64,000 bases of DNA from Siniperca chuatsi (taxonomy: Eukaryota > Chordata > Actinopteri > Centrarchiformes > Sinipercidae), in NCBI RefSeq assembly GCF_020085105.1, contig NC_058053.1, positions 17,692,388-17,756,387 of the forward strand, in the 5' to 3' direction. This document shows, one piece after another, positions 12,001-63,983 of the stretch; positions within the stretch are counted from its first letter, which is position 1; the number at the start of each line of letters is the position of its first letter. A model generated the notes under the pieces. It was not told the origin of the DNA. It searched no databases and was given only the letters and a program-made list of their open reading frames with translations. Made by a program: the position numbers and the translations under genes.

Positions 12001-15000
12001 TCCTATCTAAACATCACAGCCTACACCCAACAGCCACGTTCAATAACAGCTTCACTTCCCCCGGCTCCTGTAGCCTGCGCTTACAGACCCAAAACTGCTA
12101 TTTTAACACATAACATGTATCGGTATGTAACCATTGTTCAAGTAAAACGGACGCAACTAATAAACGCTGTTTGCATAACACTGTAGATTGTTATTTGCGA
12201 CATTGTGGAGATGGTCAGTCATGTTAATGGTCAGTGGCTTTACCTCTAATTTGAAATAAACTAAACTACAATTAAATAGTGTGATATTTAGCTAGGCTAA
12301 TATGAAACAAGATTATAACACAGCTGTCCAGAAAGAAAGAAAAACTGCTTTTAACTAGCAGTCAGCGAGTTAAATCCACAGTCAGTGTTATACACAGGCT
12401 CTACTGCAGACACACCAAAAGGCTGTTTGTTTTCAGCATGTTCTCTTAAAGATATTCATTATTCTCAACTTTGGAATGAAAATGAGAAGTGCTGCTTAGC
12501 AACGAGTAGTCTATCTCTGCAGAGTATACAGTAGCCCTGAGGCGGATCTCTATCCTGCTCAAGCCCTGACGCCACTCACTTCATGAATGAAACCCTACTG
12601 AATGAATGAGTGTGTGTGTGTGTGTGTGACATGTATGAAAACACTCACCTTTCACAGCAGCAGCAGTCTCCTTGAATCCCATGCTGGCGTAGGGGCTAGT
12701 GTTGAAACCATTCATGCCCCCCTTGCAGCCACAGGCTGTCTTGAACCGCAGGAGTCCATCACAGTCCCCTAACCTGCATCCTCCAAGGTTTCCCTCCATC
12801 AAGTTTAAGGCAATGTAGTTAAGTCCATTTTGATAACCAGCTGACATCTCCCTGCACATGGGGCTGTTGCTGCCATAGTCCTCCTCAGGTCCATCAGAGC
12901 TGCAAACAGTGTGGGATACATTCTCCACAGAGGCAGAGCTGTGCCGTTTGGTGTCATGGGCAAAGGATGGGCACACGGGTGTGACAGTGGTGGTGGAGGA
13001 GAAGGTCTCAGAACTGTGCCGCCGGCGCCCCTGAGGGTCAGCCCGGATCACTTTAGCCCCCCTGTGTGGATCCATTAGGGTGACAGATAACGAAGGACCC
13101 CCCAGGAGAAAAGAGTCCAATGGCACAGGGGGCACCCCATCCACTAAGCTGCTCTCGAGGCTGAGTCTCTGGACACAGGCAGTGGGGCTGGTGGGGAGGG
13201 GAGCAGCATCAGTGGTGCAGAGAGCAGGTAGAGGGGCAGGAGGACTGAAAGTCATCTCAGTGTAGTCATCCTTGACTGGAGCAGGCTGACACGCCAGGCT
13301 CACCTGCTGTTGGAGAGGATATTCCTCTACCATCCCCCTCACATCTGCCTGTCCCTCTAGGCTTTTTTTCTCTTCTTTCTCCTCACCTCCCTGCATGTTC
13401 TGCTCAGTGTTCACCAGACTAGGGCAAGTCAAAACTTCAGGTGTGTGGTTTAGGCACCCTGCAGGGGGGGAACCCCCAGCTTGGTGTGAGCCAAGGTGAC
13501 CCATGGAGCTGACTTCAACATTAGCATAGTCTGAGAGTGGCAGGGATCTCCTCTCTGCACACATTAAACTCGCAGAGGACTCAGAGCTCACTGATACTGT
13601 GGTTGCCAGCAGGTCGCGGGTAGCACTACTAAAGTCTATGTTGATGTACTCTCCGGGGCTGCGTGGCTCTGAGGGAAGGGGGTGTTCGCTCATACATGGT
13701 AGTGTTCTGAGGGATTCTAGAGCCAGGCGGGTGGGACGACACACCCTACCCCGGTGTACCAGACCTCCATCTACCCGAGCCACTCTGAGAGGAGATGGTG
13801 CAGAGGAAGGGGTGCCTGGTGTCCCCGGAGAGCTGCTGGTCACAGAGTCTCCTGGAGAGACAGGACAATAGTTGGACTCCTCTTCTATCCGCTGTCTCTG
13901 TAAACTCATCACCACATACTGGTCTGTGTCTGTGGACCCATTGCGCTGCAACTGGACTTGAAGTGAGCGTGGTAGAGAGCTGTGAAAATAAGCCTGTCTG
14001 TAATGTTGCTGGGGTTGGGGATCTCCTCCTGAAGGACTGAGGATGTAATCTGGGGGTGTGAGACACACCAGAGGGTCAACAGGAGACATGTTCAGGTACT
14101 CTCCATTGGTGAGCTTTCCATCAGTGCTCTCCACTGACATCTTGGTTCCGCACCACATCCGCATGTAGCCACTGTCCTCCAGAGAAACACTCCCGGGGGA
14201 GTCTGTGCATGGGGCCAGTCCCGCTGAAGAGGAGTGTGAACGGGGATTGATGATCTGCTTTGGAGCAGAAACACACATGGGGCTCATGGGCATGTAGAGG
14301 TCATCCTTGGACCCTGGTGCCTGAGGTGCTACACCTGGCATCATGGGCATATAGCCACTGTCACCTTGGAGACTGCTAGTGCCAATCTGAACATCCCTGT
14401 AATCCTCAGGATAGATCCCTTTAGGGGAGGCAGTGTGACACCTGCGAGAAGACTGGCTTGCACTGGTGTAAGTGGCTCTCATAAGAGTATACTCATCCAG
14501 GGAAGCTGAAGATACTTGGGGGGGACCCCTCTGCTGGCGGGGGGTAGTGAGGGAGTATGTACGTTTTCGATAAGCCTTGTCCAACTCCGATAACCGGCGA
14601 TAACCATTTTGATTCTTCCGCTCCATCAGCATGTAGCCATCAAGCTCACTGCTGTCTCGAGAGGGGGGAGTGTCAGCTTTGAGAGACTCTGGAGTGTTGC
14701 TACGGAGGGTGAGTGGTAGCCTCAGATCCCGTGTGTCTGCAGGGCTAGAGCCATACTCCTCACACGATATAAAACCAGCATCACTGAGGGAGCCTGAGAA
14801 GGAGGCACTGCAGCTGGAGGGGCGAGGGGCACTGCTGTCTGGGCAGGAGGACAGATTTCCTAGGCTAGGGGTGGCCATGGGCGGGGAATGAGACAGAGGC
14901 ATAGACATGGACTTACTGTGCTGGAGGGAAGAAGATTCAAATGTCCGACAAGGGCGCGTTGTAATGGTGTGAGATCTGCTCAGGAGGGTCCTGTGGACCC

Positions 15001-16024
15001 CTGGGCTAAGGGGGCTGCCAGTCACTGACATGGGACGTGTCATGGTGCCATCGCCCTCGCTGGCCGTGCGTATTCGACAGGAGGAAAATTTGCTCACAGG
15101 AGAGGTCGCAGCCATGCTATCAGTGCGTGACCGCCGGGGAAGCCCGGTCTGGCTGGGGGGGAGATTGTTCAGGTGCCTCCGTGTGGGAACAGATATGGGG
15201 TTTGTACCAGATGACTGGCTTTTACTGCGCGGACGGAATTCCGACAGCTCCTTCATGGCCTTCATCGCCTCCAAGATAGTTTCGTGGATATTTTGCGCCA
15301 CCACAGAGTCATCCGCCTGCATCCATAACTCCCCGGGACCCGTGGCTGCAGATCGACCAACCTCAATGAAGAAAAAGCTGTCAGAGTGGCCGCACCTCCG
15401 GATATTCATCAGCTGTAAAATGACGGAGGCAACCTCTGAGTTCAGCTTGACAAAGCTGATAGTCCGGCCGGAGAGACAGAGTCTGTACACTCCGGTCAAA
15501 TTTCTGCTTTGCCCCAGGCCTTTGGATTTCAGATTTACTTGCCATATCTCCTTGTAGGCGGCGATTACCGGCGTTATTACACCGTAGCTCGCCTCGTCAA
15601 AGCCAACCAGCGAGGACGCAGAGTTGGACGCTGAGCCGTCGTATACTTTCCCCTCTGCCATTAAATCCATCAGCACCCGGTACCAGCTCTCCTGTTCCTG
15701 CTCGTTTTCTGCCGCCACGGCAAAATACTCGTCCTTGGTATAAAGAGCGATAAGATATTTGTATTTTGCGTCCGCTCTCTTGTTGATATTGAGACAGCAG
15801 TCCAGAGGAATAACTCTCTTCGCGGCCGATTTGTTTTTCCATTTCTTCTCGCTCTCGTAGTACTCCAGCCGGGCAGGGAAACCTTCGCTTGGGTCTTTTA
15901 GAACGAAAAAGCGCTTGTGTCCGTGTTTCTGCTTCTTCAGATATCCGCATTTCTTGATAGTGTTGTTCACGTTCGTATTACCGGGCAATAACGGCTGATC
16001 TCCCGTGTTTGGCGGACTCGCCAT
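4234..16024 (-). CDS. irs2: Insulin receptor substrate 2 (two-exon CDS)
   Basis: The CDS is complement(join(4234-4238, 12649-16024)), 1126 residues. The product is a cytoplasmic adaptor that docks on insulin and IGF1 receptors and recruits PI3K, GRB2 and SHP2. Visible in the protein: a PH domain at about residues 22-125 (KKCGYLKKQKHGHKRFFVL start), a PTB domain at about 155-265 (RRCGHSDSFFFIEVGRSA core), then a long disordered tail. Tail YxxM motifs lie at Y464, Y512, Y558, Y577, Y620, Y643, Y703 and Y921, with a GRB2-type YINI at Y793 and a SHP2-type YIAL at Y1070. The N-terminal MASPP and many tail blocks match IRS2, not IRS1 or IRS4, as I remember them. The start is the ATG at 16024-16022, with A at -3 and G at +4; the frame runs further upstream but only from a TTG. 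Exon 1 ends AAA G|GTGAGT; exon 2 supplies AA plus TGA, giving the family's ...VKE end. Whether this is the a or b teleost copy cannot be told. Confidence 0.93.
5936..6072. repeat. Two (CA)n microsatellites
   Basis: CA dinucleotide runs at about 5936-5962 and 6028-6072, separated by 65 bases, within the irs2 intron. They explain the CVCVCV and THTHTH peptides in translated frames. Confidence 0.95.
6528..7171. mobile_element. hAT-like non-autonomous DNA transposon (MITE)
   Basis: The left end reads CAGTGTTGGGCAAGCTACTT and the right end is its imperfect inverse (AGTATTGCCCAACAC on the opposite strand). Both are rich in the AGCTAC/GTAGCT words typical of teleost hAT MITEs. Flanks share TATTACA (6521-6527 and 7172-7178), close to an 8-bp target duplication with one mismatch (TATTACAC against TATTACAT). 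There is no transposase ORF. Confidence 0.75.
7288..7634 (+). mobile_element. AT-rich MITE, copy 1 (GATTAATCGATTA family)
   Basis: It starts AGGGCTACAACTAATAATTA and ends with the partly inverse GACTAACTGTTTCAGCT. The core carries the GATTAATCGATTA and ATAAAATGTCA words of a very common teleost repeat. It has no coding capacity; the 62-residue open frame inside is fortuitous. Confidence 0.7.
8541..8876 (+). mobile_element. AT-rich MITE, copy 2 (GATTAATCGATTA family)
   Basis: A second, diverged copy of the family at 7288-7634, in the same orientation. It starts AGAGCTGCATCTATTATTA, contains CTCGATTAATCGACTAAT, and ends ACTAATCCAACTACTTGCTGCAGCTTT. Shared order of motifs identifies the relationship; no protein is encoded. 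Confidence 0.7.
9385..9426. repeat. (CCA)n trinucleotide tract
   Basis: About 13 consecutive CAC units on the plus strand in the irs2 intron. The poly-Gly and poly-Trp open frames across it are repeat artefacts. Confidence 0.95.
11401..11425. repeat. (CA)n microsatellite
   Basis: An uninterrupted CA run in the irs2 intron. Confidence 0.95.
12649..16024 (-). CDS. irs2: irs2 coding exon 1 (all but the last residue)
   Basis: A single 3376-nt exon encodes residues 1-1125 and the first base of codon 1126. The reading frame is open throughout. It runs past 12649 into the intron for 22 more codons that include a CA repeat (CHTHTHT), and that extension is clearly intron because a consensus donor (AAAG|GTGAGT) stands at 12649/12648. 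A giant first coding exon is the known gene structure of IRS1 and IRS2. No frameshift or internal stop is present, so the gene looks functional. Confidence 0.95.
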
Positions 16025-16330
16025 TCTCGTGTCCTTCGCTATCAGACACAATGCTTCCTTCCCTCGAGTTGCTAAAGAAACGACGTGCTTTATTTTAATC
16101 CTCTATTTCCAGAGCCGGTTGTGCGTGCGTTCGTCTTCTCCCAAAGCTGAGCAATAAATAACACATGTCTGCTAGTGTCCGGACTGATGAGGGGAAACAA
16201 CATGTGACGATCTACACATCCAGCTCTGGTTTAAAAAAAATAAAAAGAGGGGAAAGGAGAAGAAAAAAATACACACACCGACAGTGGGCGGTGCGCACTC
16301 AGCTCATTGGGCTTATTGGTGGAAACGGGA
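16025..16330 (-). promoter_or_regulatory. irs2: irs2 5' UTR and probable promoter
   Basis: Upstream of the irs2 ATG, two CCAAT boxes occur on the minus strand (plus-strand ATTGG at 16306-16310 and 16315-16319), with a GGGCGG GC box at 16286-16291 between them and the gene. Two closely spaced CCAAT boxes plus a GC box fit an NF-Y/Sp-type TATA-less promoter, placing transcription start roughly between 16200 and 16260. The start site itself cannot be read from sequence. Confidence 0.5.
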
Positions 16331-46700: not shown

Positions 46701-49700
46701 AATCTGACCTGGATACCCAAGGCTTCCTTTTTCTCCCTTGGAGCCTTGCAGTCCTGGCTTGCCAGGCATACCCTCTGGCCCCGTCTGACCCTTCTCTCCT
46801 TGTGATCCTGGGATTCCTGGCTGGCCTGTCTGACCCTGTGAGAGTAGGGAAGGTACTGATGATTATTGAGAGGAACAAGTCAGAAAAAAAGATGTTGAAA
46901 GTGCAAAGACAGTAAACCCGACAGAAACGTGTCCTTTTCCATCTCTGTTGGGCGCCAGTTTACATTCTATAATCTCGACATTTTAAGTTTATCCATAGAT
47001 TTTGTTACATTAGAAACTTACCAAAAACATTGACATTTGTAATAATGCACATTAATAAACATACAGTCCTACAACAGAATTGAAACTTTGGTGATGTTAT
47101 GTTTCTCACTGCAAGCTCCTCTGAAATTAGAGTTGACTTCTCTCTCCAAGTTACCATGTACACACTCTTGCACTTTTGACTCTTGATAATGTTTTATCCT
47201 TTGTACTGATAATTTTACTTCGAGTTTCATGGCCATCCAAGCCTTGGAAGTGCTCAACCTGCCAATTTTCAGTCCACACAAGATTAGTAGTCAAGCTTAT
47301 TGAGCCACAGAAGAAGTCTCTGCTTATGTTCATAGAACTAAAACATAACCATTGTTATTGCTAGTGGATTACCTTTTCTCCTGGATGTCCTGGGAACCCA
47401 ATACCTGGCTCACCAGCTGCTCCCTTGTCTCCTTTCTGTCCATCGATGCCTCTGAATCCAGGATGTCCTGGTGTACCAATATCTCCCTTAGTACCCTGTG
47501 GACCAATCGCACCTGCACGAACACACACACAAGCAGACAAAATGCAGATAGTTACAAAAGTTGCATTTAACTTGCATTAAACAGTGTTTCTCACAATTTA
47601 ATGTGAAATGTAGGTTTTCCTTTGCTTGAAATATTCTCAATACAGGGGACTAAATGTCATGTTTCTTATACTTATAATACATGTTTTCACACACACACAC
47701 ACACTAACATTTTGTGTGTTTTATTTGTTCTTACCTGGTAGTCCCATCTCTCCTACACTGCCTTTCTGTCCAGGTGGTCCCATACTGCCAGGCTCTCCAG
47801 GAAAACCAGGGTCTCCTTTCTCTCCTGAGACACATCAGTGAGATTGAAAAATGTATATCTATTTTATTTTCCCTTCATTTTCATCAGATGATGAAGCAAG
47901 TGCAGACAATTTACTAAAATAAATAAGAGTTAAATTAAATGAATAAGACAAACAAATATGATTACCACATGTAGTCTACATGGTTTAAATATCCTACAAA
48001 AAAATCTAACACATTTTAGAATGCTGTTCATGTGGTCACCTGGTTGTCCAGGTGATCCAGGCTCTCCATTTTTGCCTGGCATTCCAGGGTCTCCAGGAAC
48101 TCCACGGTGGCCCTTCTGTCCAGTGGCCCCAGGGTTACCTGATAATGAAATTAAAAACCACACTGAGATATTTCTTAAACTATGGTTCAATATACAAAAT
48201 CACCAGTGGACTTCTTTGTTGCAAATCTTTATATGACACATGTACTCTGATTGAGCGAAAGGCCAGTATGTTGTTTTATACCTGTATCTCCGAGGTCTCC
48301 CTTCTCCCCCTTCATATGCTCCATGTCAACTTCACTCATGTTCCCAGGAGGTCCCTGAAGACCTGGCTCTCCCCTTTCTCCTTTAGATCCAGGCTCTCCA
48401 GTATCACCTCTTGGTCCAGGAATACCAGGATCACCTGAAAGAGATGGGGAAAGGGAAATTATTATTGCTGCTGAAAAATCAAAAATAAAACCCTGAAAAG
48501 TGTACACTGTATGACCAGTATGAAAGAGGCTGAAGAAAGTGAGAACTCTAAAAATAATTTTCCCAGTTTGGTCTTCCTCACCTCTCAGACCAGGAGATCC
48601 AGGTGTACCAGATGGTCCAGGAAATCCTGGTACTCCTGGTGTCCCTATGACCCCCATTTCACCTTTAGGACCTGGCAAACAAACACACACACAGTGAGAT
48701 TACTGAAATGAAAAAGAGATTAAAAAGCTAGAGGAGTCAATTATCTAAAAAAGATCATCCAATGCAGCCTCCCCAGTACTGAACCACTGGAAGCAAATTC
48801 TGAAAATGTCCCAATTATTTTCCTCCAAAAGTCAACCGTGCTCCTTCCTCATTTCAAATTCAAGGGTAGGTTGAATCCTCAACCTTATACGTACATTACT
48901 GCCACTTAGTGGTAAGAGTAATGTGTGTATTGAAAAGGCAAAAAGAAATAGACTTACAGTACCTTAACTGCAAAAACAATGAAGATATTTTAGAACATGC
49001 TTACATTATGTGATTAAATCAGGATAATGTAGCCTGGGAAACAGACAAATCTACAAGCTCATGTTTTATTTGCTCTGGGAGATGCGTCTGGCACCCCTTC
49101 CATTCAGACAGATTTCCACCTGTCCTAGATCTGGATGGGCCAATCGACTGTTTATCTAATATGAGGCAGGTTTGATACAATGACTGTCGAGGAGCGCAAC
49201 CTTATTGGCCGTTGAAGCATTTTCATGAACAACAAAGATTGCTGCCGCTGGTATGAAACTGTTTCTGTTGATTCCGCTATCACGTCAGTATTAAACGAAC
49301 TGGAAGGTATATTTTCTCTAAAAGAAGAACAAAAAGCTGCACTTATAGCTTTGTTGATAAGAAAGATGTGTTTGCCGTACTTCCGACAGGATTTGGTAAG
49401 TTTAATTTACCAATACACTACATCACACGTTTTGTTGCTCTGATTGGTTGTAGGTCTATCCAATTGCGTCCAGAGACATTTTGTTCTGCACCCGCTGATA
49501 ACGCCCCTTGGAAACCAAAAACTGAGAATCTGCCGAAATACTATGATATTGAGCGAACAACAACACAACAAGTAATGTAACTAACGTTATCTAGGTTGTG
49601 GGTTAGAGACGGTTGTGAGACGGTTTCCCAGAGCCAGCAAACCGGCTCCAGACAGTGATACTCACAACTCTCCTGCTACTATAGCTAACATCACAACAAC

Positions 49701-55200: not shown

Positions 55201-58200
55201 TTAATGTTTCTGTTGCACCTCTGACCATACCCAGCATCACTGATGGATGTGTATGGCTGTGGTCAGAAGTGTGCTCTGTTGCACCTTTAACCAAACTCAA
55301 CAGTGATGTCACAGTGGAGTACACTTCTACATCACTGTAGTGAGGTGAGAAGATAAACTGCTATCAGAATCAGAAATACTTTATTGATCCCCAAGGGGAA
55401 ACTCTTTTGTTACAGCTGCTCACTATCACGTCAGTGCACACAGGAATAGAAGTTCTAAGCAATCAAATATAATACACTATAATACAGGCAAAATAAATTA
55501 AGTACGTGGGTATAAGTATAAAAATAAAATAAGTGGAAAGTGGATTACCAATTGATGATAAGTATGTACGGTATAATAATACAATGTAATAATATAAGCA
55601 GAGGTCAACAAAAACAAAATTCGGGGGTGTTAAGTTGCTCTTTAAGTCCCTTTTATGGGTCATGCTCCCTTAATTCTGGATCCTACATTTCCCCTAATGC
55701 ACCTCAGTAGTGTCTGTTAGATCCTCCCTGCCTGGTAAATGCCCACATCATCCACAGTTTGTATTGCAGGCATTCTGTTAAAATGTGTAGTCTCTAAACC
55801 CAAACCAAGATTATTCAAGTCAAGGCCAAAGGCATGATTTTAGAAATACTGAGGTCAGAAGTCAAATTTCCCCAAGCGCAACTCAATCCATTTAATAACT
55901 GTTCTGTTATAGTTTCTGTAAATTATACCTTCCTACATGATGGTCTAAATACTATTAAGAAAGCCTTCTCCACACTGCCAGGATATGAAAATACAGAAAC
56001 ATTTTGTTATGTTTATTTAATCTTTACTTTTGACCTAAAAAATGTCAAAGTTAAAGATATTTAGTCTTAAAACCATACCATACCCACCATATGTAATTTT
56101 AAGTAGCCATAGTTTTTTTGCTGAAAGTAATTTGTGTGCAACCTCCTCCTCAGGTTGTTAAATCCCCCATATTTTCCAGAGACAATACCAGGAAAGTGAG
56201 GTAATTTGCTCAGACTAGTCAGAGAAGACACTGTACAACGGTAAAATCAGTGGATTGCCCCTTTAACATGCTCTCACATTTTAGCAGAATGAATATGTGG
56301 TGACATCTGCTGGTAGTTTTTCGAACTCATCCTCTTTGTAGCTGATGGGAAAGAGAGTGAGTGGGTGAGAGAGAAAGAAAAAGAGAAAAGAAAAAATTGG
56401 AAAAGAGGGAGGAGAGCGATCACTTACAAAACCTGGTGGTCCCCTTTCTCCCTTTTCACCCTGAAACAAGACAGAGAATTTAGTCTGTCTGACCCTAACA
56501 CCTCCAAGATCATTTAAGTTTTGGATGTAAGCCTTGAGGATGGCCAGGGTAAATATAAGGTGCATTAGTTACCTGGGAACCAGTGTATCCAGGAGCTCCA
56601 GGAAATCCCTTTTCTCCCTGTATGAAAGTATGTGCGTACTTTAGCAATAAATATTTTATAATATAAAAGAAAACAACAGTTGGGCAGCAGAGTACAATAG
56701 GTAAATAATACAGTAAGTTATTGTTACCTTCAGCCCATCCTCTCCATCCTTGCCAGGTTTACCCTAAAATTACAGAAGCAGACACTAACTTTGATTAGTT
56801 TTGTTGTCACCTGGATTGATAACATAGGGATTGTTACATAAAACTGAATCTGTATCTGCTCGAAATGGGTACAAAAAGAAACTTAGGTGAAACAAGTTAA
56901 TAGTCATTTGTAAAGCTTGTTTTCCATATTACATTCAAACTTTTGACGAATCTGCATAAAAAGCTTACAATGACAACTAATGCTGAAATTCTTCCTCCAT
57001 TTGTCATACCATTATACCATCACCATACCAGACATATTTTTAACACTTACTCTTTGTCCAGGCGGGCCGTGATCACCTTTGACACCATCATGATACGGGA
57101 TGCAATAGCCCTGTAAAGGAAATCAGGTGTCTCAAAAAAGTAGAAAGTTGAACTTAAAGATAACAAACAGCCTATGTGCACAGTAAAACAGACATACACT
57201 TCAACATCTGAAAGCAAAATACTAACTTTTTCTCCTTTGTCTCCTGGAGGTCCTCTGTTACCCTTTAGTAATAAAAAACACATTCAGGTAATAACACAAG
57301 TCATCTTTTACATATAAACAGACATTTAGCAATTGGCATTTATTTATACATGAAAATAGCACAATTTCTGTTCAGTTTTTAAAGAACGGAGTGAGTACCG
57401 GTGGTCCAGGTACATGCACTGTGGTATGTCCTTCCACTTCCAGTAATGGTCCAGGAGGGCCAGGTGGACCACGAAATCCTTGATCACCCTGCAGGGAGAC
57501 TGCAGCGATCACAACAACATCCAAAGCCAAATACATTTTCAAGAAGAAAACATATCATCAAGTGAATCTCCAAATTTGGTGATTTAGATTTTAGATAAAC
57601 TGAAGAATGAAGAGTTCCTTAATGGGTTGAGAAAATTATCTTACCACTTAAACTAAATTTTTTTTTAAAAATTTAAACTTGGATTATCTGAAAAATGCAT
57701 TGTCACAAAGCTGAAAACAGGGCTATTATTCTTAGCTTATAAAAAATGACATTTTGGAGATGCATGTTTTCACAGGACAGCAACAAAATGCAAAATCATT
57801 TTATTAATAATATTACACAGCATGTTTAACGGGGGCTACCTCAGTACCACTTTACATTACAGCTCAGTAGTAATGACGGAATGGCCAGCTAATATCATGA
57901 TAATTACAATGATAAAATATCTTTGTAATATGAGAGTTTAATTTTTGTTATAAACATTAAGGTAATGGGGAACCCAGCTCAAACTTATCATGGTAATAAC
58001 TTCACAATCACAAGAACATTCCAGGACATTGTCACAAGTAATTATCAGAAACTAATGCTGAAATTGAACCCCTCCTTGAACCGCCACCTTAACGTGGTGG
58101 AGGGGTTTGAGTACCCGAATGACCCTGGGAGCTATGTTGCCTGGGGCTGTATGCCCCTGGTAGGGTCACCCATGGCAAACAGGTCCAGGGTGACGGGTCA

Positions 58201-61200
58201 GACCAAGAGCGGTTCAGAAGACCCTTATGGATTATTTAAAATCAAGGCCAGTTACGTCGCCCGGATTGGCGCTACCGGGCCCCACCCTGGAGCCAGGCCT
58301 GGGGTGGGTGCCCGACGGCAGCGCCTGGTGGCGGGCTTTTCCCCACGGGCCCGGCCGGGCACAGCCCGAAGGAGCGGCGTGGGGCCGTCCTCCGTGGACC
58401 CACCACCCGCAGGAGGATCCGTAAGGGGCGGTGCAGAGAGATCTGGGCGGCAGTCGAAGGCAGGGGCCGGCGACCAGATCTCCGGACACAGAAACTGGCT
58501 CTAGGGACATGGAATGTCACTTCGCTGGGGAAGGAGCCTGAGCTTGTGCGGGAGGTTGAGCGTTACCGGCTAGATATAGTCGGCCTCGCCTCCACGCACA
58601 GCCTGGGCTCTGGAACCCGTCTCCTCGAGAGGGGCTGGACGCTCCATTTCTCTGGCGTTGCCCGGCGGGGAGAGGCGGCGGGCTGGTGTGGGCCTGCTCA
58701 TAGCCCCACAGCTCAGCCGTCACGTGTTGGAGTTTACCCCAGTGAGCGAGAGGGTCGCATCCCTCCGCCTCCGGGTGGGGACAGGTCTCTCACTGTTGTG
58801 GCGGCCTACGGGCCGAACAGCAGTGCAGAGTACCAGGCCTTCTTGGAGTCCCTGGGAGGGGTACTAGACAGTGCACCACCCGGGGACTCCGTTGTTCTAC
58901 TGGGGACTTCAACGCCCACGTGGGTAGCGACAGTGACACCTGGAGAGGGGTAATCGGAAGGAGCGGCCCCTGATCTGAACCCGAGCGGTGTTCAGTTGTT
59001 GGACTTCTGTGCTAGTTACAGTTTGTCCATAACTAACACCATGTTCAAGCACAAGGGTGTCCATCAGTGCACGTGGCACCAGGACACCCTAGGCGGAGGT
59101 CGATGATCGACTTTGTTGTCGTATCATCTGACCTCCGCCGCGTGTCTTGGACACTCGGGTGAAGAGAGGCGGAGCTGTCAACCGATCACCACCTGGTGGT
59201 GAGTTGGATCCGCTGGCGGGGAGGAAGCCGGACAGACTTGGCAGGCCCAAGCGTATCGTGAGGGTCTGCTGGGAGCGTCTGGCGGAGCCCTCTGTCAGCA
59301 GGGTCTACAACTCACACCTCCGGGAGAGCTTCTCCCAGATCCCGGGAGGTTGGGGACATTGAGTCCGAGTGGACCATGTTTTCCACCTCCATTGTCGATC
59401 GCATGCGCGGCTCGTAGCTGTGGTCGCAAGGTTTCTGGTGCCTGTCGCGGCGGCAATCCCGAACACGGTGGTGGATGGCGGAAGTAAGGGATGCCGTCAG
59501 GCTGAAGAAGGAGTCCTATCGGGCCTTGTTGGCTCGTGGGACTCCCGAGGCAGCTGACAGGTACCGGCAGGCTAAGCGTGCTGCAGCCCGTGCGGTCACA
59601 GAGGCAAAAACTCAGGACTGGGAGAGGTTCGAGAGGCCATGGAGGAGGACTATCGGTCGGCCTCAAAGAAATTCTGGCAAACCGTCCGGACGGCTCAGGA
59701 GGGGAAGCAGTGCTTCACCAACACCTTGTACGGTGCGGGTGGAGAGCTGTTGACCTCGACTGGGGATGTTGTCGGACGGTGGAAGGAATACTTTGAGGAT
59801 CTCCTCAATCCCGCTGTCACGTCTTCCGAAGAGGAAGCGGAGGCTGGGGACCCGAAGCGGACTCATCCATCACCCTGGCCGAAGTCACTGAGGTTGTTGG
59901 CAAGCTCCTTGGTGGCAAGGCTTGGGGGTGGATGAGATCCGTCCTGAGTATCTTAAGTCTCTGGATGTTGTGGGACTGTCTTGGCTGACACGTCTCTGCA
60001 ACATCGCGTGGCGGTCTGGGACAGTGCCTCTGGACTGGCAGACCGGGGTGGTGGTCCCTCTGTATAAGAAGGGGACCGGAGGGTGTGTTCCAATCACAGA
60101 GGATCACACTTCTCAGCCTCCCGGTAAGGTCTATTCCAGGGTACTGGAGAGAGGAGAATTCGATCCGATAGTCGAACCTCGGATTCAGGAGGAGCAGAGT
60201 GGTTTTTCGTCCCGGTCGTGGAACACTGGACCAGCTCTATACTCTCCATCGGGTGCTCGAGGGTTCATGGGAGTTTGCCCAACCAGTCCACATGTGCTTT
60301 GTGGATCTGGAGAAGGCATTCGACCGTGTGCCCCGGGCGCTTTGTGGGGAGTGCTCTGGGAGTATGGGGTCCGGGGCCCTTTGCTAAGGGCTGTCCGGTC
60401 CCTGTATAACGGAGCAGGAGCTGTGTTCGCATTGCCGGCAGTAAGTCAGACCTGTTCCCGGTGCATGTTGGACTCCGCCAGGGCTGCCCTTTGTCACCGG
60501 TTCTGTTCATAATTTATATGGACAGAATTTCTAGGCGCAGTCAGGGGGGCGGAGGGTGTCGGTTTGGGAACCACAGGATCTCATCTCTGCTGTTTGCAGA
60601 TGATGTCGTTCTGATGGCTTCTTCAAACCAGGACCTGCAGCATGCACTGGGACGGTTTGCAGCCGAGTGTGAAGCAGCTGGGATGAGAATCAGCTCTTCC
60701 AAATCTGAGGCCATGGTTCTTGACCGGAAAAAGGTGGTTTGCTCTCTTCGGCGTGGGGGGAGTCCTTGCCCCAAGTGGAGGAGTTTAAGTATCTCGGGGT
60801 CTTGTTCACGAGTGAGGGACGGATGGAGCGTGAGATTGACAGGCGGATCGGTGCAGCGTCTGCAGTGATGCGGGCGCTGTATCGGACCGTTGTGGTAAAG
60901 AAGGAGCTGAGTCGAAAGACAAAGCTCTCGATTTACCAGTCAATCCACGCTCCTGCCCTCACCTATGGTCATGAGCTTTGGGTAGTGACCAGAAAGGACA
61001 AGATCGCGGATACAAGCGGCCGAAATGGGCTTCCTCCGCCGAGTGGCTGGGCGCTCCCTTAGAGATAGGGTGAGGAGCTCAGTCACACGGGGAGCTCGGA
61101 GTAGAGCCGCTGCTCCTCCACGTCGAGAGGAGCCAGCTGAGGTGGCTAGGGCATCTGATCCGGATGCCTCCTGGACGCCTCCCTCGGGAGGTGTTCTGGG

Positions 61201-63983
61201 CATGTCCCACCGGGAGGCGGCCCCGGGGAAGACCCAGGACACGCTGGAGGGACTATGTCTCTCGGCTGGCCTGGGAACGCCTCGGGATCCCCCCGGAGGA
61301 GCTGGAGGAAGTGTCTGGGGCGAAGGAAGTCTGGGAGTCCCTGCTTAGACTGCTGCCCCCGCGACCCGGCCCCGGATAAGCGGAAGAAGATGGATGGATG
61401 GATGGATGGATAATGCTGAAATTCCTGTTCCTTTTACATTTCAAATTTTCCTCTTTTGTTTTAGGATTATGCCATCAAAACTTTTCTTGAAATGCAACAA
61501 ATTCTTACCTGAAGAAAAAAAAAACACATATGGTAAGAAAGATATTACCCCATTCTTACAGTTTTATTACTGAACTGTGAAGTGCTCCCGCTACCTCTAC
61601 AGTAAAAGCATCATATAAGAAATGCAAGAAATGCTTTATCATATATAAAACAAACTTCTCACCTTATCTCCTTTCTCGCTCTCAAATGCCAGCTTGTCAC
61701 CCTGCAGGGAAGTTTTAAAAAAGTTCTTATGACATCTCAGCTGGGTGATCAAGTCAGAGGATGGTGGACTTTGTTTTACAATTGTCAAATCTTTATGCAT
61801 GATTAGTCTTACCGCCTCTCCAGGAGGGCCAGGGAGGCCAGGATCACCCTGTCAAACAGTCGTTCAATTAGTCAAACAAACTGATAATACCAGTACTGTA
61901 TCTAACTGATGAGCATTGACAAATTATCATCAGCACCATCAGTATCTTCCAGGTTTAAAAATCTACTGAGATTATACTATAATTTGTGCTCTTTCCAGTA
62001 TGAATTGCTGTTATATTAAATGATAATCATGTGTCTCTGCATAACAAATATTCCTTATCTCTTAAAGTTTATCACTGACTCTGTAGGATGATCAACAGTC
62101 CATCACTGTACGAGTAACTCACTTTGGGTCCTTGATAGCCACGAGGTCCAGGAGGTCCACTAGGTCCAGAAGGTCCAATTGATCCCTGGGAGAGAAAGAC
62201 GTGTGTAGGAAGAACTTGGATTTGCATGAAAATTCAGATTACATTTGTCTCAGTTTTCTTTCAACACGCATAAACACAGGCATGTATGTTCACAAACACA
62301 CACACACAGACGTACAGGTAATCCAGGTGTACCAGGGAATCCTCTATCTCCTTTCAGGGGAACAATCCCAATCACACCACCAGGGTCACCCTGTAGGAGA
62401 CAAAACAAAAATAAATAATTTGGTAGAACACATGTGTCTCACCATGCTGGAAGATGGGGCATACTTGTATTGTTTGACAAAATTTACATAAAAGATGTTA
62501 ACGCTTCATAAATTTCAACTGACCTTCATTCCAGGAAGCCCTGGGATGCCCTGAGAAGAGAGGACAGTAGTGATATATCTATCTACATGTAGCATATTCT
62601 GGCAGAATGAATATTACAATTTTGAGATACTGTTAATGCATTGCTATATCTTGTTATTCTAATGTTATGGTTGTTATGTTTTAACTTCAGTTGTTTACTG
62701 CAATACAGTCCTATATGGGCTGAGGAGTCCTGCTCAAAACCAACTGGAGCATTCCTAAAAAGGTATGCCAGTCAGTTTAAAAACAATGCAGCTTTTATTG
62801 AAATGTTGATGGTTTTCATATTGTTTCCATAGAACAGTGGCAATAACTGAAATGTGTGCTGGTCAGTGGGGTGGTGGTTGATTATCATGCGAGTCACAGT
62901 TGCTTACAGGAGGTCCTTGAAGACCGGCAAAACCGGGAGTGCCATCCCTTCCTCTGTCTCCCTGAAACACACACACACAACACAGTCAGAAGGCACACAC
63001 GGTGTTAAGGTTATCTGACAAAAGAAAATATCAGGCGAGGACACAAAACCTGTGTGAACAAATCTACTTTGAAACACAACAACTTTTAGAACTGGAACTT
63101 ACTTTAGTCCCATTGCATCCTGGGATACCTGGCTGACCTGGTGGGCCATCGTTTCCATTGATGCCCTAAGAGTGGGAGTGCACAAATAGACAATATGAGA
63201 CTATTTGCAGTTACACAGTGACAAACTCTCCCCAGCTTCCTGACCATTCTACCCGGTCTTCACGACTAACCTCCCCTCAGACACCATCCAAAATTATAAT
63301 GTGGCCTAAAAAATAACAATATAATCTAAAACCGTGTTATTTAGAGGGCATTCCTTTTTAGTGGGTGATTGCATGTTAGACAACAATCTTATTGTTATGG
63401 GGTGAATTTACTGGATTGTTGCAGGACGTGAGACACTAAGGCAGATCAAAGGAACTTACTGGTAGTCCTGGGTTTCCTGGGAAACCTGGCAGACCAGGAG
63501 GACCCTGCAAGATCATAACCATATTAGCATTATTGTCTCATGACAGCACCAAAACTAAAACTAAAACAACATAAGCAATCATTTGTGGAATAGAAATCTG
63601 TCTCATATCATTGATGTAGCCACTATTGTAATTGTCCTTTTAAAACAAAACAAAAATATAATACTATATCATAATTTTGATGGTTAGTTACTTACCCGCA
63701 CTCCTTTCAGTCCAGGAGCCCCAGGTGCACCCAGATCTCCCTTAGAGAAAAACATGACATCATGATCATCATAATAGAGAAACATTTGTTCTTACGAGCC
63801 ACGAAGACCGCTCATATTTGTAATGACAAATGACACAAATTGAAATGCTGCATAACGGGTTATATTCATTATTCGGGGGGGGGGGCGACTGACCTTGGGG
63901 CCCATTGGCCCTGGAGGCCCTTCAGGTCCCTGCATCCCTGGAAATCCCATATTACCTTGAAGACCAGGAAATCCACGCTCACC
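41143..63983 (-). CDS. col4a1: Collagen type IV alpha-1 chain (5'-partial, 50 exons)
   Basis: Fifty GT-AG exons give one continuous frame of 1597 residues plus stop TAA (41145-41143), entering at a phase-0 exon boundary (63983). The product is the alpha-1(IV) chain of the basement membrane network. It is a Gly-X-Y triple helix with interruptions, followed by a C-terminal NC1 domain that directs trimer and hexamer assembly. It is alpha-1 rather than alpha-3 or alpha-5 because the NC1 reads [17 protein letters not shown] and [13 protein letters not shown], because interruption landmarks ([26 protein letters not shown], two Cys-bearing breaks) fall in the alpha-1 order, and because irs2 is the neighbour. 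Fifty exons correspond to human exons 3-52, so only the signal peptide and the cysteine-rich start of 7S are missing, off the right edge. No stop or frameshift was found. Lysine and proline in Y positions are available for hydroxylation. Confidence 0.93.
41321..41596 (+). mobile_element. MITE copy A1 in col4a1 intron 51
   Basis: It begins AAGAATAACTTAACACCAGG and ends AGGTGTTAAGTTACTTTTTA, an inverted pair. Internal text (CAGCATCACTGA, AACAGTGATGTCAC, GTACATCACTGCAGTAAGGTG) recurs in the same order at 55141-55648, proving a shared family. Confidence 0.8.
42460..42967. mobile_element. Candidate MITE in col4a1 intron 50
   Basis: The left end TGCAAATTCACAAAGAATGG and right end CATTCCTTTTGTGAATTCGG are inverse complements with few mismatches. 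The interior includes repeat-like TTGCGC words. It is non-coding. Confidence 0.55.
43832..48671 (-). CDS. col4a1: col4a1 exons 33-47: C-terminal half of the triple helix
   Basis: Exons, low to high: 43832-43930, 44020-44148, 44322-44393, 44524-44596, 44768-44901, 45060-45245, 45337-45387, 45855-45953, 46512-46592, 46709-46835, 47373-47512, 47735-47824, 48040-48138, 48282-48434, 48582-48671. All are Gly-X-Y except known-style interruptions: HTFIKGD in exon 46 (where alpha-1 chains have PYDIIKG), and [12 protein letters not shown] in exon 34. Many exons begin with split glycine codons (phase 1), as is usual in the middle and 3' part of COL4 genes. Each exon has a GT donor and AG acceptor, and the phases agree across every junction. 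Confidence 0.92.
49029..49640 (+). pseudogene. Decayed mobile fragment encoding a RecQ-like helicase start
   Basis: In col4a1 intron 32, on the opposite strand, the plus strand encodes [13 protein letters not shown] (from 49318), then in another frame [11 protein letters not shown] (about 49367-49399), then back in the first frame SLIYQ (49399). Together these are the Q-motif-like lead-in and Walker A (motif I) of a RecQ-family DNA helicase, broken by two frameshifts and cut off after motif I. Short inverse ends CTGGGAAAC (49034-49042) and GTTTCCCAG (49623-49631) bracket it. RecQ-like fragments of this kind are scattered in fish genomes. No helicase activity can be expected. Confidence 0.55.
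50241..53597 (-). CDS. col4a1: col4a1 exons 24-32: central triple helix
   Basis: Exons, low to high: 50241-50408, 50721-50834, 50956-51106, 51520-51617, 51769-51873, 52062-52154, 52581-52749, 53184-53375, 53527-53597. Exon 32 contains GLDMPGP, exon 25 the break [14 protein letters not shown], and exon 29 ends at an AAA|GTGTGT donor. The frame is conserved throughout. Intron 32 contains a decayed helicase-like mobile fragment and intron 26 a dispersed repeat. Confidence 0.92.
52201..52465 (+). repeat. (GT)n microsatellite plus dispersed repeat in col4a1 intron 26
   Basis: A GT run at 52205-52233 is followed by a common teleost repeat (GAGGACATTTTTGGGAAGTG..GGTTAGGGTAAGGGGCTAGG..ATAGAAGTACAAGGATGTG). 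It includes telomere-like TTAGGG words. Its origin class is unknown to me. Confidence 0.6.
53822..54779 (-). CDS. col4a1: col4a1 exons 19-23: helix with two cysteine-bearing interruptions
   Basis: Exons: 53822-53905, 54101-54184, 54337-54483, 54598-54633, 54719-54779. Exon 22 carries the non-helical [10 protein letters not shown] and exon 23 [11 protein letters not shown]. These correspond in position to the Cys-containing interruptions of mammalian alpha-1(IV) (VECQ.. and SCLIC..). Exon 19 (61 nt) shifts the gene from phase-0 to phase-1 exons. Confidence 0.9.
55141..55648 (+). mobile_element. MITE copy A2, inserted in the outer transposon
   Basis: The ends ACTTTAAAGAGTAACTTAAC and GTTAAGTTGCTCTTTAAGT are inverse complements. 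The body is homologous to the copy at 41321-41596 (TTAACACCAGGCTGAAAA, CAGCATCACTGATGG, AACAGTGATGTCACAGT). It is longer because it carries a further insertion at 55363-55600. Confidence 0.75.
55363..55600 (+). repeat. Retroposon-type repeat inserted in MITE copy A2
   Basis: Begins ATCAGAATCAGAAATACTTT and continues TTGATCCCCAAGGGGAAAC, the signature of a very common teleost repeat, then an AT-rich body. Copy A1 lacks this block at the equivalent place, which confirms it as a separate insertion. Confidence 0.7.
56428..57488 (-). CDS. col4a1: col4a1 exons 13-18: small N-terminal helix exons
   Basis: Exons: 56428-56460 (33 nt), 56573-56617, 56728-56763, 57051-57110, 57227-57262, 57399-57488. 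All start at phase 0 with a glycine codon. Exon 13 contains the interruption [12 protein letters not shown]; exon 15 contains GYCIPYHDG with a cysteine; exon 16 reads [12 protein letters not shown]. Very short in-frame exons are characteristic of this part of COL4 genes. Confidence 0.9.
58053..58065 (+). repeat. Left target-site duplication of the RTE element
   Basis: TAATGCTGAAATT, identical to 61411-61423. Perfect identity pins the 5' end of the element at 58066. Confidence 0.9.
58066..58216 (+). ncRNA. Candidate HDV-like ribozyme fold at the RTE 5' end
   Basis: Hand folding gives P1 58066-58072 with 58102-58108 (7 bp, opening with a G-U wobble at the first element base). P2 is 58077-58083 with 58210-58216 (7 bp). 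P3 is 58084-58088 with 58096-58100 (5 bp, 7-nt loop). P4 is 58113-58117 with 58194-58198, extended by 58122-58128 with 58185-58191. CAGA (a CNRA match for the catalytic strand) directly follows P4. This order is the HDV double pseudoknot. Against it: the P4-to-P2 joiner is 11 nt, longer than usual; one unpaired A separates P3 from P1; P1.1 is unclear. Such ribozymes are known at the 5' ends of R2 and some RTE elements. Confidence 0.45.
58501..61379 (+). pseudogene. Degenerate endonuclease-reverse transcriptase ORF of the RTE element
   Basis: Readable in order across all three frames: apurinic-type endonuclease start LGTWNVTS (58501), [19 protein letters not shown] (about 58807), DFNAHVGS (about 58908), TDHHLVVSW (about 59181). 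Then the RT domain with [10 protein letters not shown] (59925), [13 protein letters not shown] (about 60298), [10 protein letters not shown] (60470), the catalytic FADD (60593-60604), [12 protein letters not shown] (about 60784), and the C-terminal [14 protein letters not shown] before the stop near 61377. At least seven frame changes break it, so it cannot make a working protein. The catalytic motifs are individually intact. Confidence 0.85.
61411..61423 (+). repeat. Right target-site duplication of the RTE element
   Basis: TAATGCTGAAATT directly after the ATGG tandem tail, identical to 58053-58065. Confidence 0.9.
61500..61525 (-). promoter_or_regulatory. Juxtaposed acceptor and donor (candidate recursive splice site)
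   Basis: On the col4a1 sense strand a T-rich tract runs into CTTCAG (AG at 61510-61509) followed at once by GTAAGAAT (from 61508). This is a strong 3' splice site fused to a strong 5' splice site, with a zero-length exon. It lies in intron 12, between exon 12 and the RTE insertion. Confidence 0.5.
61663..63983 (-). CDS. col4a1: col4a1 exons 3-12: N-terminal helix, continues off window
   Basis: Exons: 61663-61701, 61813-61848, 62123-62185, 62316-62390, 62524-62550 (27 nt), 62908-62961, 63103-63165, 63460-63504, 63696-63740, 63894-63983. Exon 3 reads [19 protein letters not shown], the first collagenous exon after the cysteine-rich 7S start. Exon 6 has GCNGTKG (a conserved Cys plus N-glycosylation sequon). 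Exon 9 has [14 protein letters not shown]. Exons 1-2 with the signal peptide are expected beyond 64000. Confidence 0.92.

Follow-up and report, generated by a model that had tools for sequence, protein, structure and literature searches.

A 64,000-nucleotide (nt) window of the Siniperca chuatsi genome (NC_058053.1, positions 17,692,388 to 17,756,387 of the forward strand), here called the window, contains a full-length copy of teleost Rex3, an RTE-type long interspersed nuclear element (LINE; a non-long-terminal-repeat [non-LTR] retrotransposon), at 58069-61410 (Table 1). Element nucleotides are numbered from C58069. We propose that Rex3 begins with a putative 149-nt self-cleaving ribozyme of the hepatitis delta virus (HDV)-like kind, a reading of the sequence to which we assign a probability of about 0.7.

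Table 1. Features of the Rex3 copy and of the fold predicted at its 5′ end (window positions)
Feature	Positions	Strand	Element nt	Remark
Target site duplication, left copy TAATGCTGAAATT, 13 nt	58053-58065
GAA filler, this copy	58066-58068	+		between target duplication and element
Rex3 copy	58069-61410	+		reading frames broken into pieces; RVT_1 match; start from copies and target duplications
Constrained 5′ domain	58069-58217	+	1-149	nearly invariant among 16 full-length copies
P1, 5′ strand CCCCUCC	58069-58075	+	1-7	proposed cleavage directly before C58069
J1/2, UU	58076-58077	+		alternative: longer P2 via U58077-A58216 and U58076-G58217
P2, 5′ strand GAACCGCC	58078-58085	+	10-17
P3, 5′ strand ACC	58086-58088	+	18-20
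L3, UUAACGU, 7 nt	58089-58095	+	21-27	fourth base variable among relatives
P3, 3′ strand GGU	58096-58098	+	28-30
P1, 3′ strand GGAGGGG	58099-58105	+	31-37	directly after P3′
P1.1/P4 domain, 97 nt	58106-58202	+		inner hairpins uncertain; inferred by eye
J4/2, CCAA (CNRA)	58203-58206	+	135-138	C58203 is the proposed catalytic C
P2, 3′ strand GAGCGGUUC, A58208 bulged	58207-58215	+	139-147	frequent truncation point at 3′ edge
Target site duplication, right copy	61411-61423			first T readable as tail too

The Rex3 copy and its first nucleotide

The retrotransposon Rex3 has been widely mapped in bony fishes, and the available passages of the paper describing this are silent on the way in which a clean 5′ end arises on its RNA (PMC6274825). 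The window copy was assigned to Rex3 from its tail and reverse transcriptase. Positions 61377-61410 carry the Rex3 tail TAA-GCG-(GAA)2-(GATG)n (TAAGCGGAAGAAGATGGATGG...), with GCG directly 3′ of the stop codon, the same as in a figure legend of PMC6274825; the running text there, in the part available, prints GATC. The reverse transcriptase domain matched RVT_1 in Pfam at 4e-16, and two further pieces of the copy had no match in Pfam.

A reading of this DNA from its letters alone (the sequence-only reading) had placed a possible HDV-like ribozyme precisely at the element's 5′ end, taken to be G58066. The 13-nt target duplication used in that argument is present. To locate the end in other copies, the Siniperca chuatsi genome (718.8 Mb) was searched with 58066-58217, and 40 of 234 candidates were scored. 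All 40 were 100% identical over the matched part. The match started at query base 3 in 22 copies and at base 4 in 13, with three starts at base 2 and two at base 1, one of the two being the window copy itself. A target duplication beside the tail was detected in 33 of the 40 (seven gave none; a looser first pass found 34). It ended directly before C58069 in 30 of the 33, exactly so in 23 and with 1-2 shared, ambiguous bases in 7. The other three, the window copy (GAA) included, have 1-3 filler bases before the element. From the match starts and the abutting target duplications, nt 1 of the element is C58069, three bases inside the earlier start. A start at G58066 was rejected, since by the copies and duplications GAA at 58066-58068 is filler. 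The ribozyme proposed in the sequence-only reading is supported in part, with the true end three bases further in. Among copies selected on downstream sequence alone, nt 1 was the 5′ end in 38 of the 68 that were placed (5 of 73 copies were left unplaced).

At one 5′ junction (copy L058), a partial repeat of the element's own first ~19 bases precedes the element, and the goodeid proteins P0013 and P0113 contain similar partial repeats of the 5′ block. These repeats suggest template jumping during reverse transcription.

An HDV-like layout anchored at nt 1

With the anchor at C58069, the nested order P1-P2-P3-P3′-P1′-P4-P2′ was found at nt 1, with a P1 of 7 bp, a P2 of 8 bp with one bulge, and a P3 of 3 bp. 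Both reading and script bore out the helix order P1-P2-P3-P1′-P4-P2′ given previously, and the 7-nt loop on P3 (UUAACGU, 58089-58095), the CAGA at 58199-58202 and the GAACCG/CGGTTC pairing are all present. The earlier 7-bp P1 was kept in part: its four C-G pairs are in register, while its three outer pairs lie in the filler, as does the G-U pair assigned to the first element nucleotide, which is refuted for the family. In place of the outer pairs, U58073-A58101, C58074-G58100 and C58075-G58099 join the four C-G pairs. A variable first base, or one not pairing with 58108, had been named as evidence against the fold; this is what was found for a start at 58066, and the corrected C58069 is common to the copies and pairs with G58105.

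The new anchor also removes two of three weak points acknowledged in the sequence-only reading. Because P1 gains three inner pairs, the extra A between P3 and P1 is gone and P3 is down to 3 bp; the 5-bp P3 with its extra A has given way to a 3-bp P3 that P1′ follows directly. The long joiner is shortened because CCAA at 58203-58206 becomes a CNRA motif directly before P2′ if C58085 and G58207 pair and A58208 is bulged. The sequence C58203-C-A-A agrees with CNRA at every position. The third weak point, P1.1, is still weak.

Within L3, the G (G58094) is able to pair with the first U (U58089), at the spacing of HDV; the U, C and G of the loop sit at the places of HDV U20, C24 and G25. The P4 domain is perhaps closed by UUUGA (58106-58110) with UCAGA (58198-58202), or by ACCCG with CGGGU further in; computed folds leave the P4 helix unsettled. 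The nested energy minimum was 2.4 standard deviations below that of shuffles (1 of 200 as low), and the energy minimum holds P2, P3 and one more pair (C17-G31).

How often such a layout arises by chance was estimated with 30,000 dinucleotide shuffles anchored at C58069. The loose layout occurred in 24 of them, 5 of which also had CNRA; the strict layout, in which a bulge was permitted because the window sequence needs one, never occurred. An earlier version of the layout gave 4 loose matches, 2 of them with CNRA, in 20,000 shuffles. These layouts were set after the sequence was seen, with HDV-like values that were already known. Slid along the element, the loose layout was found at 6 of 3,144 starts, of which nt 1 and 2 were the only two with CNRA. 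An unanchored scan of the 64-kb window gave 11 starts on the plus strand and 13 on the minus strand (5 and 6, respectively, with CNRA). Because unanchored layouts are not rare, the layout by itself proves little, and the case rests on the independent anchor.

No HDV-type match was obtained from Rfam for the whole window at the gathering cut-off. Rfam covariance models can miss divergent members.

Constraint, truncated ends and relatives

Sequence constraint was measured in 16 full-length copies picked on nt 150-452 (every copy among L050-L078 with a match from nt 1), the window copy being excluded. In gap-free columns, pairwise substitutions amounted to 0.25% over nt 1-149, where three columns were variable and no variant was shared; the variants are singletons at nt 21, 58 and 61. 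Successive blocks over nt 150-880 gave 1.79, 1.27, 1.11, 1.57 and 1.00%, with 3-5 shared variants each. With gapped columns included, the value was again 0.25% over nt 1-149, versus 1.95, 1.32, 1.31, 1.86 and 1.16% beyond. The first shared variants lie at nt 153, 164 and 167, and the step in diversity coincides with the end of P2′. Sampling works against this contrast, because the copies were chosen in a way that favours low divergence in nt 150-452. The 40 copies ranked by identity to nt 1-149 were kept out of the conservation analysis for that reason, and some copies of the constraint set and of the end map overlap with those 40. A degenerate pattern for L3 variants gave 0 matches in the fish's own genome.

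The 5′ ends of Rex3 copies were mapped in copies picked by 58218-58520 (40 listed) and by 58560-58860 (40 listed); with 7 in common, this gave 73 copies, 68 of them placed. Besides the 38 ends at nt 1, seven fell at nt 2-5, 14 at 143-157 and one at 279, with single ends at nt 9, 10, 11, 16, 35, 38, 48 and 133. Among the truncated ends in nt 2-157, 14 of 29 thus lie in nt 143-157 (2.8 expected; p 1.1e-7), the 3′ edge of P2′. This interval was named after the first ends had been seen; a scan test that allows for that gave 1/100,000. Chance matches in the flanks limit the accuracy of some ends to a base or two, and the end of L062 at nt 143 carries a mismatch at 145. No placed end falls in nt 49-132, an interval into which two unplaced ends could fall: that of L082, which has the 20-mer 120-139 and ends upstream of it, and that of the copy L095/L113, which ends between nt 1 and 91. 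The remaining unplaced copies (L094, L101 and L109) had no match in the piece read and probably end beyond ~185.

The drop after nt 157 comes solely from the copies picked by 58560-58860, because those picked by 58218-58520 cannot show ends much beyond 154. The former have six ends in nt 133-157, one at 279 and three probably beyond 185. The 20-mer 147-166 was also followed: 23 of the first 98 places (143 in total) lacked the 20-mer 120-139, and all 8 of those 23 that were read end at nt 143-147. In the reverse control, 25 of 100 places of the 20-mer 120-139 (160 in total) lacked 147-166, and since nt 150-167 vary, the check is weak by itself. A truncation peak at this position is expected from a folded domain, because P2′ is the first part of it that a reverse transcriptase arriving from the 3′ side encounters. 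The peak supports P2, not cleavage.

Relatives in other fishes were recovered as predicted proteins whose reading frames run through the non-coding 5′ end. One protein search gave 10 matches and another 364, of which 120 were listed; a 63-residue query had no matches. These proteins may include many dead copies, and inference from codons is weaker than from DNA. In 23 of the 33 rows listed, the 5′ block was readable from the first codon, 17 of them from Crenichthys, Ilyodon, Ameca, Scortum, Xenoophorus, Characodon, Xenotaenia and Ataeniobius (eight fish genera). Ten rows were dropped as incomplete or not alignable (P0001, P0002, P0011, P0016, P0026, P0029, P0036, P0066, P0082 and P0096); P0082 and P0096 may have ends near nt 8 or a changed P1. 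Residues upstream of the block are unrelated in most relatives, at least two having a partial repeat of the block itself, and because unrelated residues precede the block, the same 5′ end is used in other fishes.

The codons over nt 29-37 (the end of P3′ and P1′) read V in 23 of 23, E in 23 of 23 and G in 22 of 23. QTK, which fixes C135, A137 and A138, was present in all 41 frame-2 relatives, which had been found partly through QTK itself. In frame 1, SDK was present in 12 of 12 relatives (11 goodeids) where the window copy reads SDQ, so the N of CNRA (base 136) is C or A. The fourth L3 base (nt 24) varies, giving an N, I or T codon; it is variable in HDV too. In P0023, an S at nt 2-4 and an E at nt 35-37 are compatible with a compensatory change of C2-G36 to U-A, and the S could be flanking sequence.

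In many predicted Scortum barcoo proteins, a segment begins precisely at VTGQTKSGS of the 5′ domain of Rex3, at a point where the window copy has a CAG. Either the gene models are artefacts there or a splice acceptor within the element is really used. Four of these proteins (P0003, P0007, P0008 and P0009), in which the match starts at VTGQTK after unrelated residues, were not counted as truncations: given the CAG, they are probably gene models with a splice acceptor.

Around the copy, collagen triple-helix sequence lies on the minus strand at 48229-48699, and short collagen-like exons were seen by eye on the other strand beyond the copy, at 61.8-64.0 kb. Since the collagen sequence is on the minus strand, the Rex3 copy is probably antisense in or beside a collagen gene. 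A single-exon insulin receptor substrate (IRS) gene with PH and IRS-type PTB domains occupies 12581-16102, also on the minus strand; together with the collagen exons it presumably resembles the IRS2-COL4A1/COL4A2 neighbourhood. Most of the target duplication occurs a third time ~1.1 kb upstream of the insertion, where 56975-56990 has 16 bases in common with 58050-58065 (AACTAATGCTGAAATT); this may be an older repeat at the locus.

Searches further afield led nowhere, whether with exact DNA patterns of the Rex3 5′ end in viral contigs, with 5′ end patterns in bacterial and archaeal genomes (one 18-base match in an archaeal metagenome-assembled genome, L001), with the 3′ tail pattern, with the Rex3 reverse transcriptase protein in viral contigs, in phage and plasmid records, or with Rex3 sequence strings in papers.

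Competing explanations and what a Rex3 ribozyme would mean

The fixed end, the layout, the edge of constraint and the stall peak all indicate that nt 1-149 fold as a single unit in which P2 is formed. Among known kinds, it is the HDV-like layout that suits a ribozyme situated entirely downstream of its cleavage site. Such a ribozyme would cut directly before C58069, with C135 (C58203) as the putative catalytic base, and would free an RNA with element nt 1 first, whatever host sequence lies upstream. Reverse transcription that reached the end of this RNA would give inserts starting exactly at C58069, and reverse transcription that stalled on the folded domain would give inserts ending at the outer edge of P2′. 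We suggest only tentatively, at somewhat less than even odds, that Rex3 ribozymes form an HDV-like sub-kind (a C-G first pair, a near-absent P1.1 and a large fixed P4) whose fold persists during integration.

Ribozymes have close precedents at this place. Ruminski et al. reportedly described in 2011 RTE elements whose 5′ ends carry HDV-like ribozymes, and Liu et al. are said to have found in 2021 that Perere-3 of Schistosoma has twister variants at its 5′ end, with the target duplication next to the cleavage site. The Perere-3 ribozyme and the Rex3 candidate both lie at the 5′ end of a non-LTR element and differ in ribozyme class and sequence. The CNRA motif before P2′ is common to RTE HDV-like ribozymes and the Rex3 candidate. 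That HDV-like ribozymes occur at RTE 5′ ends is also stated in the available parts of two later papers (PMC7936874 and PMC11620745, citing Ruminski et al. 2011). In the literature listings, no paper on a Rex3 ribozyme was found, Ruminski 2011 and Webb 2009, which possibly mention one, being outside their coverage. As far as the accessible text of PMC4908430 describes it, the mosquito ribozyme drz-Agam-2-1 belongs to the same kind of element, has the same place and helix order, and would lead one to expect a cut before nt 1. The Rex3 candidate differs from it in its teleost host element, in a C-G pair first in P1 and in a P1.1 that is hardly there; it has a large P4 domain (97 nt) where drz-Agam-2-1 has a large J1/2 domain. 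R2 ribozymes, in the portions available of PMC3774820, form a double pseudoknot at a non-LTR 5′ end, the arrangement proposed for Rex3, with a P1 of typically 6-7 bp; besides the catalytic C, just four of their positions are rigidly fixed. Many R2s use their ribosomal DNA target sequence in P1; the P1 of Rex3 lies wholly in the element, as in the R2s that cleave at their own 5′ end (PMC3774820).

Several observations weigh against the ribozyme. In P1.1, A58091-U58106 (A23-U38) is the sole standard pair and the next opposition is U-U. Nucleotide 1 of HDV-like ribozymes is usually, if not by definition, a G in a G-U pair; here it is C58069, paired with G58105. In the free-energy minimum P1 stays open and part of P1′ is paired elsewhere, and with E values up to 10 Rfam gave no match to an HDV, twister or hammerhead family in 57900-58500. 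J1/2 has just 2 nt, and drz-Agam-2-1 had no activity with no J1/2 spacer and little with 1 nt (PMC4908430, in part). Among the copies compared, the P4 domain varies as little as the core does, unlike the highly variable P4 of R2 ribozymes (PMC3774820, in part).

The relatives add uncompensated changes. The codon at nt 5-7 is P in 4 of 23, which sets C5 against A33; the L3 G (base 26) is lost in 3 of 23; and in P0020 a P at nt 17-19 breaks A18-U30 of P3 with the V codon unchanged. The P2′ codons are SGS in 30 of 41 frame-2 relatives and changed in 11, and ERF in 8 of 12 frame-1 relatives and changed in 4, with no partner change seen in either frame. The copies are invariant over nt 1-149 except for singletons, and the protein relatives give one compatible double change, so there is almost no covariation evidence.

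The strongest rival, which we consider unlikely, is a structured 5′ domain with no ribozyme activity, in which the element's own promoter would start at C58069 and nt 1-149 would be a conserved promoter, translation or protein-binding element that stalls reverse transcriptase. The fixed end, the constraint and the truncation peak need structure or function, not cleavage; a P4 as constrained as the core, the atypical P1.1 and nt 1, and the uncompensated changes in many relatives all suit such a domain. It does not account for an HDV topology (order, helix lengths and CNRA) that is beyond chance at exactly the end, nor for the 30 of 33 duplications that abut C58069 with no filler. A capped transcript normally begins with a purine and frequently leaves an extra G at junctions.

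Far less probable is a chance hairpin at the end of the element, with the 5′ end set by something else. P1 and P3 do also form one plain hairpin, which is the energy minimum of nt 1-37 alone, and both the missing covariation and the 24 similar unanchored layouts in the window are compatible with chance. However, anchored P1 and P3 together arose in 23 of 30,000 shuffles, and an 8-bp Watson-Crick P2 on top, with nt 1-37 held fixed, in 15 of 5,000; a hairpin in nt 1-37 also leaves unexplained why the constraint block and the truncation peak both end at P2′.

Least probable of all is another self-cleaving class, such as twister, truncated versions of which RTE retrotransposons conserve at their 5′ end (PMC7761336, in the part available). 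Rfam gave no twister match in 57900-58500 up to E 10. Although GGUGGAGGGG resembles the 3′ core of twister, the 7 nt between CCACC and GGUGG leave no room for the inner stem and loop of the twister layout, and twister cleaves before A whereas Rex3 nt 1 is C; twister identity was rejected on this geometry and first base.

A ribozyme at nt 1-149 would explain exact 5′ ends while requiring no promoter within the element, and a common fish LINE would join the retrotransposons known to carry ribozymes. From the stall peak, the folding of RNA during integration could be read in assemblies alone, an approach that might be tried wherever a 5′ ribozyme is suspected. If the proposal of an HDV-like sub-kind is true, cleavage of the RNA and the block to reverse transcriptase at P2′ come from one and the same fold, and fish genomes hold its natural footprint: full-length inserts from nt 1, together with a second class whose ends lie at the P2′ edge. 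The genome itself would then report the in vivo folding of a retrotransposon ribozyme.

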